This document shows positions 1 through 55,001 of a stretch of DNA of 64,000 bases, one piece after another. The notes beneath the pieces were generated by a model. That model was not told the DNA's origin, did no database searches, and saw only the letters and a list, made by a program, of their open reading frames with translations. Made by a program: the position numbers and the translations under genes. Source of the DNA: Flavobacterium ammonificans (GTDB lineage: Bacteria > Bacteroidota > Bacteroidia > Flavobacteriales > Flavobacteriaceae); the NCBI RefSeq assembly GCF_020885975.1, contig NZ_AP025183.1, forward strand, positions 868,001 through 932,000, in the 5' to 3' direction. Each line of letters opens with the position of its first letter. Position 1 is the stretch's first letter.

Positions 1-997
1 ACACAATAAATCCTCCTGAACCCAACATTGATCCAGTTGCAAAACCTCCGTCCGACAAACTTTCGTAAGTCATCAATCGGTCTTCACCATTAGCAGTTTT
101 GTAAATCAGATTAGCTGGTAAAATTGGCACTGAACTTCCTCCTGGAACAAAGGCTTTCAAAGGTCGGTCAGAGCTCATTCCTCCTAAATATTCATCAGAA
201 TTCATGAATTCATAGACGCTTAATCCCAATTCAATTTCGTAAACCCCTGGATTTTTAATATTTCCTGAAGCTGAAATTAATTTAGTCCCGGTAGAACGAC
301 CTACTCCAATAGCGGCATAATCAGCTCCTGAATTGTTGACAACCCAAGGCACAGCAGCAATAGTTTCCACATTGTTTACAACCGTTGGGTTTGCCCAAAG
401 TCCTGATACCGCAGGGAAAGGCGGCTTAATACGTGGATTACCACGTTTTCCTTCTAATGATTCAATTAATGCGGTCTCTTCACCACAGATGTAAGCACCT
501 GCACCACAATGAACGTAAAGTTCTAAGTCGTAACCTGTATCTAATATATTTTTACCCAACCAACCAGCAGCTTTTGCTTCGGCGATGGCTCTTTCTAAAA
601 TTTTATACACCCACATGTACTCTCCACGAATGTATATGTACGAGCGGTTGGCACCCAAGGCATAGCTTGAAGTAATCATTCCTTCAATCAACAAGTGCGG
701 AATGTATTCCATCAAGAAACGGTCTTTGAAAGTTCCCGGTTCTGATTCGTCAGCATTACATACTAAATGTCTTGGTTTTCCTGATTTTTTATCAATAAAA
801 CTCCATTTCATTCCTGCAGGGAAACCGGCACCACCACGACCACGTAATCCTGAAGTTTTTACTTCTTCAACTACTTCGTCAGGAGTTAATGTTTTTAGGG
901 CTTTCTCCACTGATGCATACCCACCATTTTGACGGTATACTTCGTAGGTTTTAATCCCTGGAATATTGATTTTGTCTAATAATATTTTTTGTGACAT
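1..997 (-). CDS. nuoF: NADH-quinone oxidoreductase subunit F (partial, C-terminus outside window)
   Basis: This is the NADH- and FMN-binding subunit of respiratory complex I. It passes electrons from NADH to FMN and then into the iron-sulfur chain on the cytoplasmic arm. About 332 residues are visible. They include the glycine-rich GRGGAGFP nucleotide-binding stretch near residues 53-60 and the ICGEETALIESLEG region in the middle. The C-terminal part that would carry the 4Fe-4S cysteines lies beyond base 1. The start (MSQKILLDKI) is one base after the nuoE stop, so the two genes are tightly coupled in one operon. The reading frame is open throughout, and family identity is clear. Confidence 0.95.
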   Translation of the reverse strand, partial: MSQKILLDKINIPGIKTYEVYRQNGGYASVEKALKTLTPDEVVEEVKTSGLRGRGGAGFPAGMKWSFIDKKSGKPRHLVCNADESEPGTFKDRFLMEYIPHLLIEGMITSSYALGANRSYIYIRGEYMWVYKILERAIAEAKAAGWLGKNILDTGYDLELYVHCGAGAYICGEETALIESLEGKRGNPRIKPPFPAVSGLWANPTVVNNVETIAAVPWVVNNSGADYAAIGVGRSTGTKLISASGNIKNPGVYEIELGLSVYEFMNSDEYLGGMSSDRPLKAFVPGGSSVPILPANLIYKTANGEDRLMTYESLSDGGFATGSMLGSGGFIV

Positions 998-998
998 C

Positions 999-1529
999 TT
1001 ATTTATCGTGTAAGATTATTTTACCCGCTCTTGCCTCTTCAATAATTTGATCGATCTTTTGTTCGTTCAAATGTTCTTTATAGAAATCGCCTAATTGCAT
1101 CATTGGGGCATACCCACAAGCGCCTAAGCATTCTACACCGCGAACTTCAAAAAGACCGTCAGAAGTGATTTCGCCCACTTTTACGCCTAATTTATTACAA
1201 GTGTAATCCATTAGATTTTCAACTCCATTCAAACAACAAGGAGACGTTTGACAAAACTCAAACATGTATTTACCAATAGGCTTTAAGTTGAACATGGTGT
1301 AAAAAGTAGCTACTTCGTATACTTCAACAGGTTTAATATGAAGTATTTCGGCTACTTTATCCATTAATTCAATACTCAACCAGTTTTGGTGTGCATCTTG
1401 TACTTCGTGCAAAACAGGAATCAAGGCTGATTTTCTGTTCTCTTCAGGATAATGACCAATCAATTCGTTGATGCGATTCATCAACGTTTCGGTCATATTT
1501 ATTTCTTGTTTGTGTATTGTACGTTCCAT
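999..1529 (-). CDS. nuoE: NADH-quinone oxidoreductase subunit E
   Basis: This is the thioredoxin-fold 2Fe-2S subunit of the complex I NADH-input module. It binds the N1a cluster beside NuoF. The four expected cysteines are present: C93 and C98 (CxxxxC), then C134 and C138 (CLGAC). At 176 residues it has normal length. The start at 1529 lies four bases after the nuoD stop. A second in-frame methionine at residue 12 could also serve, but the first fits the operon spacing. It sits between nuoD and nuoF in the usual order. Confidence 0.96.
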   Translation of the reverse strand: MERTIHKQEINMTETLMNRINELIGHYPEENRKSALIPVLHEVQDAHQNWLSIELMDKVAEILHIKPVEVYEVATFYTMFNLKPIGKYMFEFCQTSPCCLNGVENLMDYTCNKLGVKVGEITSDGLFEVRGVECLGACGYAPMMQLGDFYKEHLNEQKIDQIIEEARAGKIILHDK

Positions 1530-1532
1530 AAT

Positions 1533-2768
1533 TTATGCGTCTAATTCTCCGGCAATAACATTTAAACTTGATAAAATTACAATGGCATCCGAAAGCATGG
1601 CACCTTTTATCATTTCTGGATAAGCTTGGTAATAGATAAAACAAGGTCTGCGGAAATGCAATCTATAAGGAGTACGACTTCCATCAGTTACTAAATAGAA
1701 TCCAATTTCTCCATTTCCACCTTCCACAGGATGGTATATTTCAGCTACTGGAACTGGAACTTCACCCATTACAATTTTGAAGTGGTAAATCAAAGATTCC
1801 ATATTATGGTATACATCCTCTTTTGGAGGCAAGTAGTATTCTGGAACATCAGCGTGGTATGGTCCTTCAGGCAATTTCGCCAAAGCTTGACGAATAATGC
1901 TTAAACTTTCCCATACTTCGGCATTACGAACGCAAAAACGATCGTAGGTGTCTCCTGATTTCCCAACCGGAACAATAAAGTCAAAATCTTCGTAAGAACT
2001 GTACGGTTGTGCAACGCGAACGTCATAATCAACACCTGCAGCACGCAAGTTAGGTCCAGTAAATCCATAAGCCATAGCTTGTTCAGCTGAAATAGCTCCT
2101 ACATTTACGGTTCTATCAATAAAAATTCTATTTCTTTCGAATAAGTTTTCAAACTCTTTCCAAGCTACTGGAAACTCTTCTAAAAACACTTCTAATTTAC
2201 GGAAAGCTTCTGGTGACCAATCTCTTTCGAAACCACCTATTCTTCCCATATTAGTTGTTAAACGAGCACCACAAATTTCTTCGTAGATTTCGTATACTTT
2301 TTCTCTGAATTGAAAAACATACAAGAAACCAGTATACGCTCCAGTATCTACACCTAAGATGGAATTACAAATCAAGTGATCTGTAATACGAGCTAATTCC
2401 ATTACGATAACACGTAAATATTGCGCTCTCTTTGGTACTTCAATATCCAATAGTTTTTCTAATGTCATCCACCATCCCATATTGTTAATAGGAGAGGAGC
2501 AATAGTTCATTCTATCAGTAAGTGGTGTAATTTGGTAAAAAGGACGGTTTTCCGCAATTTTTTCAAAAGCTCTGTGGATGTATCCAATAGTAGGTTCAGC
2601 TTCTAAAATTTTCTCGCCATCCATTAACAAGATATTTTGAAAAATACCGTGTGTTGCTGGGTGAGTTGGCCCCAAATTCAGAATAGAAAGTTCACTCCCG
2701 TCTTCATTTTGGCGCTCTTTGATTATTTTAGCATAACGATGCTCTGGTGGTAATAATAGTTCTGACAT
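1533..2768 (-). CDS. nuoD: NADH-quinone oxidoreductase subunit D
   Basis: This is the 49-kDa type subunit of complex I, related to the large subunit of NiFe hydrogenases. It helps form the quinone-reduction site on the membrane-facing side of the peripheral arm. It is 411 residues long, and the GPTHPATHG motif near residues 33-41 is intact. NuoC and NuoD are separate proteins here, unlike the fused NuoCD of E. coli. The gene lies 32 bases after nuoC and 3 bases before nuoE in the same operon. Confidence 0.97.
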   Translation of the reverse strand: MSELLLPPEHRYAKIIKERQNEDGSELSILNLGPTHPATHGIFQNILLMDGEKILEAEPTIGYIHRAFEKIAENRPFYQITPLTDRMNYCSSPINNMGWWMTLEKLLDIEVPKRAQYLRVIVMELARITDHLICNSILGVDTGAYTGFLYVFQFREKVYEIYEEICGARLTTNMGRIGGFERDWSPEAFRKLEVFLEEFPVAWKEFENLFERNRIFIDRTVNVGAISAEQAMAYGFTGPNLRAAGVDYDVRVAQPYSSYEDFDFIVPVGKSGDTYDRFCVRNAEVWESLSIIRQALAKLPEGPYHADVPEYYLPPKEDVYHNMESLIYHFKIVMGEVPVPVAEIYHPVEGGNGEIGFYLVTDGSRTPYRLHFRRPCFIYYQAYPEMIKGAMLSDAIVILSSLNVIAGELDA

Positions 2769-2800
2769 TTAATGAATGTGAAAAATTATATGTTGTTGTT

Positions 2801-3322
2801 TTAGCAATTTGCTGTTGTTCTTCCGAAGAATCTATCGTCTTTGTCTGTTCTTCCGCTGTCTTCCATCGGGAATTCTTTTCGCATTGGAAAAGAAACCATT
2901 TCATCCATATTCAAAATACGTTTCAACTGTGGATGACCAATGAAATTGATACCGTAGAAATCGTAAGCTTCTCTTTCCATCCAGTTTGAACTTAAGAAAA
3001 TAGTTGATATCGTTTTAATTTCAGGATTGTTTCCGCTGATGAACGCTTTGATTTTAATTCTCTTGTTTTCGTACCAATTGTGCATATGGTATACCACTGC
3101 AAACTGTCTTGTTTCTTCATTATCTGGATAATGTACTCCACATAAATCAGTCAAGAAGTGAAAACGTAAAACAGGATCGTTTTTTAAAAAAAGGATAACG
3201 GCTGTGATTTTGTCAGCGGCTACTTCAAATGAAAAAATATCTTTCTCTTGATTGAATTGAAAAACATCGGAACCAAAAGTGGCTACTAATTTTTCTTGTA
3301 TTTCGTTTGTTTCTAAAGCCAT
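2801..3322 (-). CDS. nuoC: NADH-quinone oxidoreductase subunit C
   Basis: This is the 30-kDa type subunit of complex I, a structural partner of NuoD in the connecting arm. It has 173 residues. The family signature EREAYDFYGI lies at about residues 116-125 and is followed by the H-P-x-L-x-R-I-L pattern. The start follows the nuoB stop by four bases. The C-terminus runs a short way past the conserved core into a polar tail ending in Cys. Confidence 0.95.
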   Translation of the reverse strand: MALETNEIQEKLVATFGSDVFQFNQEKDIFSFEVAADKITAVILFLKNDPVLRFHFLTDLCGVHYPDNEETRQFAVVYHMHNWYENKRIKIKAFISGNNPEIKTISTIFLSSNWMEREAYDFYGINFIGHPQLKRILNMDEMVSFPMRKEFPMEDSGRTDKDDRFFGRTTANC

Positions 3323-3326
3323 CTTG

Positions 3327-3875
3327 TTATTTGATATTATAAGAAGCTAATAATTCTTGGTACTCAGGAGAACTTCTTCTTCTAACCGATTCGTTTTTTA
3401 CGATTTCTTGTAATTTCATTACACCGTCTACGATTTGTTCTGGTCTTGGAGGACAACCTGGAACGTATACGTCAACAGGAATTACTTTGTCAATTCCTTG
3501 CAAAACAGAGTAGGTGTCAAAAACACCTCCTGAAGAAGCGCAAGCTCCTACAGCAATTACCCAACGAGGTTCTGACATTTGTTCGTATACTTGACGCAAG
3601 ATTGGAGCCATTTTTTTAGAAATAGTTCCCATTACCATTAGCATATCGGCTTGACGAGGAGAGAAACTCACACGCTCAGAACCAAAACGCGCTAAATCGT
3701 AATGCGAAGCCATTGTGGCCATAAATTCAATTCCGCAACATGAAGTTGCAAAAGGCAAAGGCCAAAGTGAATTGGCACGAGCCAAACCTACTACATCATT
3801 TAGCTTTGTAGCGAAGAAACCTTCTCCTACAACTCCTTCCGGTGGCGCTACCATTGTTGTTTTTGAATCACTCAT
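3327..3875 (-). CDS. nuoB: NADH-quinone oxidoreductase subunit B
   Basis: This is the PSST-type subunit that carries the terminal N2 4Fe-4S cluster next to the quinone site. The ligands are visible: adjacent cysteines C46-C47 in ATSCCGIEF, C112 in GACASSGG and C141 in VPGCPPRPE. The length (182 residues) is normal. It is the second gene of the operon, 39 bases after nuoA, and the protein keeps all features of an active subunit. Confidence 0.97.
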   Translation of the reverse strand: MSDSKTTMVAPPEGVVGEGFFATKLNDVVGLARANSLWPLPFATSCCGIEFMATMASHYDLARFGSERVSFSPRQADMLMVMGTISKKMAPILRQVYEQMSEPRWVIAVGACASSGGVFDTYSVLQGIDKVIPVDVYVPGCPPRPEQIVDGVMKLQEIVKNESVRRRSSPEYQELLASYNIK

Positions 3876-10185: not shown

Positions 10186-10189
10186 AATT

Positions 10190-10226
10190 TAGGTTATTAG
10201 TTTATTTGATTATAAGGTTTATAAGC
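10190..10226. repeat. left inverted repeat of a four-helix-bundle cassette
   Basis: This is one arm of an imperfect inverted repeat. Its partner is 10599-10634. When the right arm is reversed and complemented, 28 of 36 aligned bases match with one gap; the ends TAG and GTTTATAAGC/GTTTAAAAGC match best. The arm lies four bases from the RND pump start codon. Both arms are AT-rich, so chance contributes to the match, but the two arms bracket the four-helix gene exactly. Confidence 0.55.
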
Positions 10227-10229
10227 AAA

Positions 10230-10592
10230 TTATTTAGGTAATTGCGACTTATATAATCCATTAATTAGTACAGTTACCTCTGTTATTTTTTCTCTAATTT
10301 CAATATATTTTTGTTCTTCTATGTACTCAAAATCAAATGATAAAATCAATTGGTTTAACAATTCTAAAGCTGATCCATATGCAATTTCAGTAAACCTTGC
10401 TTTGTCTTTCATAGAATTTCTTCCAGAACCTTCTGCCAAATTTGAAGCAACTGAAACGGAACATCTTCTCATTTGACTCGTTATGCCAAAAAGCTCGTCT
10501 TTTGGGAAAAGCTTTGTGATTTTATAAATTTCCAAAGCTAATTCTCTAGCTTTTTGCCAAGCAATAAGTTTTTCAAAACTAAATATTTTCAT
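10230..10592 (-). CDS. four-helix-bundle protein (23S rRNA intervening-sequence / bAvd family)
   Basis: This 120-residue protein begins MKIFSFEKLIAWQKARELA and contains the SQMRRCSVSVASNLAEGSGR segment typical of the four-helix-bundle family. The family was first named from genes inside 23S rRNA intervening sequences and is related to the Avd accessory protein of diversity-generating retroelements. Members pack as a pentamer with a basic surface and are thought to bind nucleic acid; no enzyme activity is known. The gene lies inside the efflux operon between the fusion protein and pump genes, in the same direction, and is flanked by imperfect inverted repeats. No reverse transcriptase is nearby. 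A second, divergent member sits at 53410. Confidence 0.9.
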   Translation of the reverse strand: MKIFSFEKLIAWQKARELALEIYKITKLFPKDELFGITSQMRRCSVSVASNLAEGSGRNSMKDKARFTEIAYGSALELLNQLILSFDFEYIEEQKYIEIREKITEVTVLINGLYKSQLPK

Positions 10593-10598
10593 TTGGGG

Positions 10599-10634
10599 GC
10601 TTTTAAACTTTTAAACAATTGAACTTTTAAACTA
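10599..10634. repeat. right inverted repeat of a four-helix-bundle cassette
   Basis: This is the partner of 10190-10226. The arm reaches exactly to the stop codon of the membrane fusion protein (10632-10634), so the cassette fills the whole junction between that gene and the pump. It contains the repeated motif TTTTAAAC three times. Confidence 0.55.
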
Positions 10635-43660: not shown

Positions 43661-43673
43661 TTGATTTTTGATT

Positions 43674-43768
43674 AGCCCCCCAACCCCCAAAGGGGGAGTT
43701 GCAGGAGGACGTATGTTTTTATATTTTTTTCTATTTCGTTTGTTCCCCCTTTTTGGGGTTAGGGGGCT
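43674..43768. repeat. GC-rich inverted repeat filling the leuC-leuD junction
   Basis: The left arm (43674-43697) begins AGCCCCCCAACCCCCAAA, and the right arm (43744-43768) is its imperfect complement. 22 of 24 aligned bases match, with one gap. Each arm also folds alone (CCCCC-AAA-GGGGG). The element begins at the leuC stop and ends 13 bases before the leuD ATG. The GC content is far above its surroundings. It looks like a REP/BIME-like or miniature mobile repeat. Confidence 0.75.
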
Positions 43769-52784: not shown

Positions 52785-52808
52785 TTGCTACCCTTAAACA
52801 AAACTCAA

Positions 52809-53363
52809 TTGGCAAACGAACGCATCATATTAGGAATTGACCCTGGAACCACTATTATGGGTTTTGGATTGATAAAAGTCGTCAATAAAAAGATGGAATT
52901 CTTACAACTGAATGAACTACAATTATCCAAATACGATAATCATTATCAAAAGCTAAAAATCATTTTTGAACGCACTATTGAGCTCATCGAAACACATCAT
53001 CCAGATGAAATAGCAATTGAAGCGCCATTCTTTGGAAAGAACGTGCAATCGATGTTGAAACTAGGTCGCGCTCAAGGAGTAGCAATGGCAGCTGGACTTT
53101 CTCGCGGAATTCCCATTACAGAATACGAACCAAAAAAAATAAAAATGGCCATCACTGGAAACGGTAATGCCAGTAAAGAGCAGGTAGCCAAAATGCTCCA
53201 ACAACTGTTAGGTCTTAAAACATTACCGAAAAACTTAGATTCAACCGATGGTTTAGCTGCCGCAGTTTGTCACTTCTTTAATTCTGGCCGACTAGAAATC
53301 GGAAAAAGTTATTCGGGTTGGGATGCTTTTGTGAAACAAAACGAAGAACGAATTAAGAAATAG
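52809..53363 (+). CDS. ruvC: crossover junction endodeoxyribonuclease RuvC
   Basis: This cuts Holliday junctions during recombination. It has 184 residues from a TTG start (52809), giving MANERIILGIDPG as in other RuvC proteins. The catalytic acids are seen as D10 (LGIDPG), E in IAIEAPFFGKN and the DSTDGLAAAVCH region. An in-frame TTG 24 bases earlier adds eight residues but does not fit the family N-terminus. The gene ends exactly where an inverted repeat begins. Confidence 0.92.
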   Translation: MANERIILGIDPGTTIMGFGLIKVVNKKMEFLQLNELQLSKYDNHYQKLKIIFERTIELIETHHPDEIAIEAPFFGKNVQSMLKLGRAQGVAMAAGLSRGIPITEYEPKKIKMAITGNGNASKEQVAKMLQQLLGLKTLPKNLDSTDGLAAAVCHFFNSGRLEIGKSYSGWDAFVKQNEERIKK

Positions 53364-53393
53364 TGTTCAGTGTGCAGGTTTTAGTGTTCAGTC
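53363..53393. repeat. left inverted repeat of second four-helix-bundle cassette
   Basis: This 31-base arm begins at the last base of the ruvC stop codon. The reverse complement of the right arm (53800-53830) matches at 25 of 31 bases without gaps. The arms read GTGTTCAGTGTGCAG... and its imperfect complement. Confidence 0.7.
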
Positions 53394-53409
53394 AAACTAA
53401 TTTTATTCT

Positions 53410-53784
53410 ATGAGATTTCAAGATTTATTAGCCTACAAAAAAGGATTTATTGTTGCGATGGAAATTTTTGAATTAACGAAAAATTTCCCAAAAGAGGAAA
53501 TCTATTCTTTAACGGATCAAATTCGTAGAAGTTCTAGAAGTGTTACAATAACTATAGCTGAAGCATATAGAAAAAGAGAGTATCCAAAATATTTTCATAG
53601 TAAATTAACTGACGCTGATTCAGAAAATTCAGAGACGCAGGGTTGGTTAGAATACGCTTTAGCTTGTAAATATATTTCACAAGAAATTCACGATTCTATT
53701 CTTGAAAAGTCAAAAGAAGTTGGTAAGCTTATCAATTTTATGATATTAAATCCAGGTAAATTTGGTTCTAAATCTGAAAACTAA
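53410..53784 (+). CDS. four-helix-bundle protein (23S rRNA intervening-sequence / bAvd family), second copy
   Basis: This 124-residue protein begins MRFQDLLAYKKGFIVAMEIFELT and contains DQIRRSSRSVTITIAEAYRKRE, the signature region of the four-helix-bundle family. It differs strongly from the copy at 10230, so it is not a recent duplicate. It lies between ruvC and hemW in the same direction as both, and inverted repeats flank it. The family binds nucleic acid in its best-known settings; no role here is known. Confidence 0.9.
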   Translation: MRFQDLLAYKKGFIVAMEIFELTKNFPKEEIYSLTDQIRRSSRSVTITIAEAYRKREYPKYFHSKLTDADSENSETQGWLEYALACKYISQEIHDSILEKSKEVGKLINFMILNPGKFGSKSEN

Positions 53785-53799
53785 TATTTTCTTAATCTC

Positions 53800-53830
53800 G
53801 TCTGACCACTAAAATCTGACCACTGACCAC
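53800..53830. repeat. right inverted repeat of second four-helix-bundle cassette
   Basis: This is the partner of 53363-53393. It contains a tandem of CTGACCAC and ends 7 bases before the hemW ATG. Confidence 0.7.
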
Positions 53831-53837
53831 TTTAAAA

Positions 53838-55001
53838 ATGAGCGGAATCTACATCCACATACCCTTTTGCAAACAAGCTTGTCATTACTGCGATTTTCAT
53901 TTTTCGACTTCAATGAAGAAAAAAGAGGAAATGGTTTTAGCTTTGGCCAAGGAACTACAATTGCGTAAGAGTGAGTTTGAAAACGAATCAGTTGCAACCA
54001 TCTATTTTGGAGGAGGTACGCCGAGTAGATTGACCATTGCGGATTTAAAATTGTTGATTGCTACGATTTATGAACAGTATACGGTTGTAGAAAAACCAGA
54101 AATTACTCTCGAAGCCAATCCTGATGACTTGTCAGAATCCTATTTATCCGATCTTAAAACTATTGGAGTTAATCGCTTGTCTATTGGAATTCAGTCTTTT
54201 TTTGAGGAGGATTTGCAATTGATGAACCGCGCACATAATTCGGTAGAAGCTAAAAAGTGTTTGGAAATAGCTACCCGTTATTTTGATAATATTTCATTGG
54301 ATTTAATTTACGGAATTCCTGACCTGAGCCAGAATGGCGAACAGACGAAGCAAATGTCGAACGAAAGATGGCAGCAGAATATTGAAACGGCACTATCTTT
54401 TGGAATACCGCACATTTCCAGTTATGCCTTGACAGTGGAACCTAAAACGGCTTTGAACAAACTGATTCAAACCGGAAAAATAGCTTCACCGAATGATGAA
54501 GTTGCCCAAGAACATTTTATGATTTTGGTCGAAACCCTTGAAAAAAACGGATTTGTTCATTATGAATTGTCCAACTTTGGTAAAGAAAATTATTTTTCTC
54601 AAAACAATTCGGCCTATTGGTTGGGCAAAAAATACATAGGAATTGGCCCTTCAGCACATAGTTATGATGGTATTTCGAGGAGTTGGAATGTTGCAAATAA
54701 CGCCTTGTATCTGAAAGCGCTCCAGAATGATGAATTACCCAATGAAGTCGAAAAATTAACTTTGGAAGATCGGTATAATGAATATATTATGACAGGTTTA
54801 CGAACGATTTGGGGGGTTTCTTTGGTTCGAATTGAGCAGGAATTTGGCATAGATTTTTTAAATTATTTAGAAAAACAATCGCGAAAATTCATTGACGATG
54901 GGTTGCTTTCTATCACTGACGACATTTTGAAGCCAACATTAAAAGGCAAATTTTTAACGGATGGAATAGCAAGTGATTTGTTTTACTTAAATTTGGAATA
55001 A
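53838..55001 (+). CDS. hemW: HemW-type radical SAM haem chaperone
   Basis: This 387-residue radical-SAM protein has the cluster motif CxxxCxxC (C11, C15, C18). It matches HemW, the haem-inserting chaperone, rather than the coproporphyrinogen dehydrogenase HemN, which has a fourth cysteine. The GGGTPS motif near residue 58 and the NPDD segment are family hallmarks. It is separated from ruvC by the four-helix-bundle cassette. Confidence 0.9.
   Translation: MSGIYIHIPFCKQACHYCDFHFSTSMKKKEEMVLALAKELQLRKSEFENESVATIYFGGGTPSRLTIADLKLLIATIYEQYTVVEKPEITLEANPDDLSESYLSDLKTIGVNRLSIGIQSFFEEDLQLMNRAHNSVEAKKCLEIATRYFDNISLDLIYGIPDLSQNGEQTKQMSNERWQQNIETALSFGIPHISSYALTVEPKTALNKLIQTGKIASPNDEVAQEHFMILVETLEKNGFVHYELSNFGKENYFSQNNSAYWLGKKYIGIGPSAHSYDGISRSWNVANNALYLKALQNDELPNEVEKLTLEDRYNEYIMTGLRTIWGVSLVRIEQEFGIDFLNYLEKQSRKFIDDGLLSITDDILKPTLKGKFLTDGIASDLFYLNLE

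Follow-up and report, generated by a model that had tools for sequence, protein, structure and literature searches.

A four-helix-bundle (IVP) gene between inverted arms of seven-nucleotide words at the ruvC–hemW junction of Flavobacterium ammonificans

The cassette between ruvC and hemW

The window analysed here is one whole stretch of 64,000 nucleotides of F. ammonificans DNA (contig NZ_AP025183.1, positions 868,001 to 932,000). Between ruvC and hemW it carries an IVP gene, coding for a four-helix-bundle protein, which is flanked by two inverted arms (Table 1). An earlier note on this DNA had described a cassette of 468 bases with 31-nt arms matching at 25 positions, extending from the ruvC stop codon to 7 nt before hemW; the coordinates and shuffles show this description to be exact. 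The first base of the left arm is the G of the ruvC stop codon TAG (position 53363), and the arms match without gaps. None of 300 shuffles of both gaps reached 25 matches, the highest count being 20. Folded as an RNA duplex with a few flanking bases, the arms have a calculated energy of −35.6 kcal/mol, compared to a mean of −12.4 and a minimum of −22.3 kcal/mol in 500 shuffles. By direct reading, three of the six mismatches fall at heptamer position four, where the left arm has T or similar and the right arm has G; this pattern looks like separate homogenisation of each arm.

Table 1. Features of the ruvC–hemW cassette and the second IVP cassette (window coordinates)
Feature	Position	Strand	Description
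ruvC, upstream neighbour	52785..53363	+	ORF with mechanical TTG start, stop TAG at 53361-53363; PF02075, E 1e-40
Left arm, 31 nt	53363..53393	+	Four heptamers, GTGTTCA GTGTGCA GGTTTTA GTGTTCA, then GTC; 25/31 to right arm
IVP gene	53410..53784	+	ORF of 124 codons, four-helix-bundle protein; PF05635 / TIGR02436
Right arm, 31 nt	53800..53830	-	GTGGTCA GTGGTCA GATTTTA GTGGTCA, then GAC, on the minus strand; 25/31 to left arm
hemW, downstream neighbour	53838..55001	+	ORF, ATG 7 nt past right arm; TIGR00539, E 2.6e-79
Second IVP cassette of the window	10186..10631	-	ORF 10230-10592, between two co-oriented ORFs; arm words of TTTAAAAG type

The cassette DNA is single-copy in the genome, and its inverted pair was not among the output of a generic repeat finder run with default settings. 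Simple scans, which fit Bacteroidota poorly, listed neither a sigma-70-like promoter nor a plus-strand terminator in 53300-53900; the TAnnTTTG motif was likewise absent between the left-arm start and the ORF start, which, from a simple scan, is weak evidence. The window has no rRNA match at Rfam gathering scores, the focal cassette sitting between two protein genes, and neither a phage collection nor PADLOC gave a match. At 43661-43767 the window holds one gene-less stop-to-start inverted repeat, GCCCCCTAACCCC ... GGGGTTGGGGGGC, which is probably a member of a different dispersed repeat family.

The focal protein matches PF05635 (E 1.1e-28, 100 bits against a cut-off of 33.8) and TIGR02436, 'four helix bundle protein' (E 1.4e-25, 89.6 bits against a cut-off of 24). 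The AlphaFold2 model built on a 27-row alignment has a pLDDT of 96.7 and consists of four long helices forming a four-helix bundle; the single-sequence run reached a pLDDT of 52. Its best PDB match is XCC0516 (2gsc; E 4.8e-5, TM 0.87/0.92), and BT_0352 (2rld) matches with an E value of 1.5e-4. Weaker matches were found to Avd of diversity-generating retroelements (4dwl, E 0.013, TM 0.77/0.89; 8ube, E 0.04), and the available text of PMC10053308 likens PF05635 to Avd. The focal protein thus shares the fold of Avd and has a weak match to the bAvd profile NF033474 (E 1.6e-10); unlike Avd, it lies far below the equivalog cut-off (27.8 bits against 80), and its genome has no RVT_1 reverse transcriptase. 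The search for PF00078 covered the whole genome (99.8% complete) and gave no match, whereas the control search was positive in 3 of 14 genomes. A partner reverse transcriptase in the focal genome is therefore unlikely, and its absence is evidence against a close Avd analogy.

Of the 78 pairs among the 13 focal-clade orthologues at ruvC–hemW, 69 had a usable dS; they give a median omega of 0.09, a rough value because dS is high. Comparison of these coding sequences indicates that the IVP gene is under purifying selection, and the protein thus matters, either to the element or to the host.

Copies in the genus and the state of the junction

Seven PF05635 genes are present in the 2.27 Mb of the focal genome, each between other genes, and the seven copies carry seven different arm words. 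The inverted-repeat score exceeds the shuffled 99th percentile in six of the seven; the second cassette of the window has weak arms, its best ungapped match of 18/25 being equalled by one of 300 shuffles. Like MITEs and REP elements, the cassettes bring short inverted repeats that are scattered in gaps between genes; unlike them, their arms share a period and not a sequence, and the loop is an intact gene under purifying selection. An ordinary transposon-like passenger of MITE or IS type, with a transposase recognising the terminal repeats, would account for the terminal inverted repeats around a single gene and for the CAGT words dispersed in 48 of 61 genomes, but seven copies with seven arm sequences leave no common terminal sequence to recognise. 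This excludes a simple IS or MITE and makes any passenger of this general type very improbable.

At least one PF05635 member is present in 60 of the 61 Flavobacterium genomes, the focal one included, with a range of 1 to 16; the exception is G041 (99% complete), which has no member at E 0.001. We parsed 107 Flavobacterium loci without any arm filter, in a sample that leans to strong profile scores; 103 had full N-free flanks and 102 of these were unique. The mean inverted-repeat score of the 102 loci is 22.5 with their own flanks, 12.3 with the flanks of different loci and 11.1 with shuffles. Seventy-four loci lie above the shuffled 99th percentile and 28 below. Among the 99 loci with both flanks, 74 have an inverted-repeat score of at least 15; in these, the left arm begins a median of 3 nt past the upstream stop codon, the right arm ends a median of 8 nt ahead of the downstream ATG, and the median arm length is 38 nt. 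The left arm has more G than C in 62 of them and more C than G in 7.

Both neighbours are co-oriented with the IVP gene in 99 of 106 unique cassettes, compared to 318 of 536 control genes under the same criterion. A cruder gene caller gave 70 of 98 short loci against 411 of 740 control triplets; since it wrongly scored the groES–groEL loci as not co-oriented, we rely on the former comparison. Placement from stop to start in the host direction suggests that the gene is probably expressed from the host transcript. Ten recurrent sites hold at least three loci each (75 loci lie at sites with at least three usable loci); these include ruvC–hemW, groES–groEL (L025) and the gaps before a thiolase gene (L118), a pseudouridine-synthase gene (L003) and a cytidylyltransferase-like gene (L113).

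The earlier note had also called for a comparison of ruvC–hemW junctions with and without the cassette. ruvC was matched 60 times in the 61 genomes, and at the 50 junctions examined the site is polymorphic: 8 hold the IVP cassette, 21 hold a short gene-less gap with an inverted repeat (p ≤0.05), and 11 are bare, with stop and start abutting or overlapping (e.g. TAATG). The others have a short gap without significant hairpin (4), another gene (4), or a gene other than hemW next to ruvC (2). Clean empty sites, the expected counterpart of an inserted element, thus exist in 11 of 50 genomes, but the commonest gene-less junction keeps a short hairpin. Filled and bare junctions differ in both stop codon and spacer; therefore, the cassette ends cannot be set to the base as a search for target-site duplication would demand. 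The gene-less hairpins are built of CAGT words in some species and of ATTAGATAATT-like words in others. At five loci (L062, L066, L143, L147 and L040), a gene that reads as lipoprotein-like directly follows ruvC in place of the hairpin.

Genomes with a gene-less ruvC–hemW hairpin have a median of 6 IVPs, compared to 3 in genomes with a bare junction (Mann-Whitney p 2e-4); phylogenetic contrasts on the ruvC tree gave r 0.48 and p 0.006. The association fits a trans effect of IVPs on hairpins, and also a common cause. In a small sample of random stretches, hairpins were sorted by eye as terminator-like or word-like; no word hairpin was seen in 69 gaps of the IVP-free G041 and G252, nor in 35 gaps of the IVP-rich G036. 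Period-7 arrays, counted under set cut-offs in similarly small random stretches, numbered 0 in the IVP-rich focal genome (G000) and G036, 7 in G058 (4 IVPs) and 4 in G147.

The low omega and the filling of the same ten sites across many species could also be expected if the gene had been domesticated by the host, coding for a small, conserved operon protein with a role in the cell, and the arms were local regulatory decoration. Such a gene would sit poorly with the occupation of ruvC–hemW in only 8 of 50 genomes, with the absence of any member from the nearly complete G041, and with sites that have no function in common, coding sequence and 23S rRNA among them. We regard domestication as decidedly unlikely.

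Period, dispersal and pairing of the arms

The arms of the cassette class are tandem words of 7 nt, sometimes of 8 nt, and the word varies by site. This period, and the class of cassettes that has it, go beyond the single locus of the earlier note. When the 96 Flavobacterium cassettes with gaps long enough were tested singly, 83 had a period of 7 or 8 at p ≤0.01; among 192 control gaps between co-oriented genes, taken from 40 stretches of eight genomes, 13 did. In the lag analysis, which took in 87 loci, the arm regions match themselves at lag 7 with a mean of 0.465, compared to 0.317 after shuffling; the best lag is 7 or 14 in 55 loci and 8 in 21. Low-complexity microsatellites in AT-rich gaps beside a common gene might in principle look alike, as the arms are of low complexity and some other gaps share the period. 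The excess over control gaps, the constancy of own-arm complementarity through letter turnover (see below) and the presence of the pattern in several phyla speak against such a coincidence, which we find scarcely credible; chance arms are ruled out by the 300 shuffles of the focal gaps together with the 83/96 against 13/192.

The same period was seen in a second set of loci, comprising 80 of 157 relatives found, from GTDB genomes; 79 were evaluable. By title the set is mainly Bacteroidota, but several members are metagenome bins whose labels may err; three loci are titled Flavobacterium, one of which (L325) is the same locus as L134. Forty-four of the 79 beat all 100 shuffles, 59 reach p 0.05 and 20 miss it. 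In the 51 loci scoring at least 16, the lag-7 self-match is 0.529 against 0.302, and the best lag is 7 or 14 in 43. Ignavibacteriae, Clostridia, Syntrophales, Omnitrophota, Planctomycetaceae, Deltaproteobacteria and Pontiella each contribute at least one locus above all shuffles. The 20 of 79 together with the 28 of 102 Flavobacterium loci lacking significant arms indicate that the gene can persist armless. A further 20 loci, part of the plasmid records with matches, comprise 19 cyanobacterial loci and one Azospirillum 23S locus. Thirteen beat all shuffles, with a best lag of 7 in eight, 8 in four and 9 in one; seven miss p 0.05, among them L278, whose clear heptamer arms in the annotated gaps lie partly beyond the 150-nt test window.

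Gene and word are loosely coupled. In the focal IVP clade, 23 of 30 left arms, spread over several sites, contain at least two CAGT words; the cassettes outside this clade have them in 0 of 76 left arms and 2 of 76 right arms. The presence of the focal clade at other sites with the same word family is as expected if gene and arms once moved together. CAGT or CAGTGTTCAGTGTTCAG-like words are also dispersed without the gene in 48 of 61 genomes, with up to 132 matches (G040); the reversed-word control gave 0 to 8 per genome, except G016 (46) and G057 (16). Because such words abound in genomes without a focal-clade match in the protein search (132 in G040, 27 in G012 and 34 in G013), they are not tied to an IVP of their own. 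The mobile element suspected by the earlier note is partly supported, in that the focal clade and CAGT words recur together at several sites. At the recurrent sites, however, the gene has the look of an old, inherited one (331 same-site pairs), and the genomes compared gave no sign of a new insertion, an excision or a partner enzyme.

Two further occurrences of words were observed in the focal genome. Near position 349007 of its contig C1 (L228), CAGTGTTCAG words lie in frame inside leuS, without an IVP gene; TIGR00396 matches across the 905-codon open frame, and G007 (L234) is alike there. At positions 1179500-1186000 of the same contig (L258), five similar stretches of AAGTGTTCAGTGTTCAG-like words lie in gaps between genes whose surroundings read as a sugar-nucleotide or O-antigen cluster.

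In 58 of 75 loci at the ten sites, a cassette's own arms score higher than combinations with the arms of other species at that site (mean scores 20.3 vs 16.8; Wilcoxon p 9e-7, with related species not independent and two of the ten sites reversed). We also arranged 331 same-site pairs by IVP identity (0.9-1, 0.75-0.9, 0.6-0.75, 0.45-0.6 and 0.3-0.45; n = 18, 105, 168, 30 and 10). Over these falling classes, left-left similarity is 56.2, 27.6, 19.8, 15.9 and 10.2, and right-right similarity is 39.0, 24.8, 16.4, 11.7 and 10.4; own left-right complementarity is 23.3, 24.6, 20.7, 19.6 and 25.1. Since arm similarity decays to background and own complementarity stays at about 20-25, the letters of both arms change in step, and complementarity is kept as they turn over.

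Selection on RNA pairing should tolerate G-U, so that G-U mismatches would be expected to exceed A-C. The ratio of G-U to A-C is 90:112 in 74 Flavobacterium loci and 94:96 in 51 loci of the second set. This absence of a G-U excess rules out strictly RNA-level selection as the main cause of pairing, which therefore looks kept at the DNA level. The ratio also weighs against a broader alternative in which pairing of the arms takes place in the polycistronic mRNA and selection keeps them as an RNase III excision site, a stabiliser or a stop-start translational coupler. Stop-to-start placement and co-orientation with the neighbours are both in its favour; precedents are the Coxiella 23S intervening sequence (IVS) excised by RNase III in vitro (available text of PMC4990558) and the hupS–hupL heptamer hairpins discussed as stabilisers or couplers (excerpts of PMC2670836). 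Against it stands, in addition to the mismatch counts, that 11 of 50 genomes do without any ruvC–hemW spacer. Taken together, we consider an RNA-level device a somewhat improbable alternative.

Other hosts, related systems and a proposed reading

The resemblance to ORF-bearing 23S rRNA intervening sequences, drawn in the earlier note, holds: the terminal-repeat plan is the same, and Azospirillum lipoferum (L286) has an IVP gene inside its 23S rRNA gene, with the Rfam LSU_rRNA_bacteria match at 283-3345 spanning the gene. Like the 23S IVS with an S23 ORF whose excision by RNase III in Coxiella is described in the available text of PMC4990558, the cassette has the same protein family in a terminal-repeat loop in host-transcript direction, and the Azospirillum case has heptamer arms too (GACGGAT/GACAGAG-like). 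Unlike the IVS, the cassette is hosted by mRNA gaps or coding sequence, and the copies of one genome differ in their arms.

Annotated four-helix-bundle genes of plasmid records lie between cas6 and cas4 in Pseudanabaena and Anabaena 90, between cas10 and a cmr3-family gene in Picosynechococcus, and after a TraM-domain gene in Nostoc C052, the last with GGGAACA repeats in its arms. Three of the cyanobacterial plasmid loci (L278, L280 and L283) place IVP genes within CRISPR-cas operons of the cas6–cas4 and cas10–cmr3-family type, which may explain why a survey of CRISPR-linked proteins names '23S rRNA IVP' in one of its figure legends (PMC10910872, available in part). In 5 of the 19 annotated cyanobacterial plasmid loci (L279, L287, L373, L375 and L381), the IVP gene is not co-oriented with both neighbours.

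At L161, L177 and L186 (genomes G177, G141 and G161), the IVP gene lies within a host ORF whose own, different frame stays open across it (752, 728 and at least 1103 codons, respectively); L161 and L177 have the same insertion position. Host frames were inspected in six loci picked by eye, so the three nested cases are a minimum for the 29 phylum-level loci. At the place where the L161 host has 474 nt, its distant homologues, with some 30% identity, have about 45. The profile search gave no family for the L161 host piece, the N6_N4 methylase family for one homologue and MmeI/N6 methylases for the L186 host.

Tandem heptamers have been described without IVP genes. The available parts of the literature report heptamer hairpins between hupS and hupL and cyanobacterial 7-bp repeats (STRR; PMC2670836, whose references include a 1995 paper titled 'highly variable but structured intergenic regions', on cyanobacteria), GGGAATC heptamers, which include 70 inverted pairs in one Xanthomonas (PMC4692102), and TAACTGA repeats (PMC4679880). 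Like the cassette arms, these are tandem 7-nt words in intergenic gaps, some of them in inverted pairs or just before a start codon; unlike the cassettes, they come without an IVP gene in the portions of the published descriptions available. In the same partial texts, 'helix bundle' and 'S23' are absent from PMC4679880 and 'helix bundle' is absent from PMC4692102. No paper joining IVP genes to heptamer arms is among the open-access matches listed, subscription papers being mostly outside their scope. Neither the seven-nucleotide period of the arms around IVP genes nor the joint change of the two arms appears among the literature matches listed.

The locus stands as described and belongs to a broad class; its mechanism and mobility are what we infer. 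With a probability of about 0.55, the focal cassette is a copy of a widespread class of guest element, in which an IVP gene is looped in an inverted repeat of tandem 7- or 8-nt words. It is best read as an IVS-type element generalised to mRNAs, the ends of which are set by period and complementarity and not by sequence.

The cassette sits in transcribed DNA, mostly from stop to start and in host-gene direction. On this reading, each arm would be homogenised through slippage in 7-nt steps, and the two arms would stay alike because one serves as the template for the other in single-stranded DNA, either through hairpin-templated synthesis or through template switching by a host DNA polymerase. 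The IVP protein, as a structural relative of Avd, might bind the hairpin and might help to maintain, and rarely to spread, hairpin and gene; this role is put forward with more reserve. No reverse transcriptase is needed for it, as the genome is without RVT_1. Where these sites have a short hairpin and no gene, the hairpin would be a non-autonomous product or a remnant, and the IVP-bearing 23S insert of Azospirillum would be the same element in a ribosomal transcript.

A bolder model, which we hold to be unlikely, has IVPs and a host DNA polymerase jointly writing heptamer hairpins into transcribed DNA and maintaining them there; the ends of this class of mobile element would consist of nothing but a 7-nt period and self-complementarity. 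If true, hairpin writing by IVPs would cover those 23S IVSs that bring an IVP gene, the IVP genes found in operons, CRISPR operons included, and part of the dispersed STRR-like heptamers of cyanobacteria and Bacteroidota; the element could also insert in frame within genes, with its own gene in another frame. Two old puzzles, the role of the IVS-encoded S23/IVP proteins and the origin of intergenic heptamers, may be one. Copies in groES–groEL, cas operons, an rRNA gene and methylase-type frames are a measure of what hosts tolerate. Paired arms that turn over with period and pairing kept are hard to derive from known transposition, and they offer a clear experimental handle. If the IVP acts on the repeats, it would represent a new kind of genome-writing activity; if it does not, the arms still document concerted evolution, probably at the DNA level.
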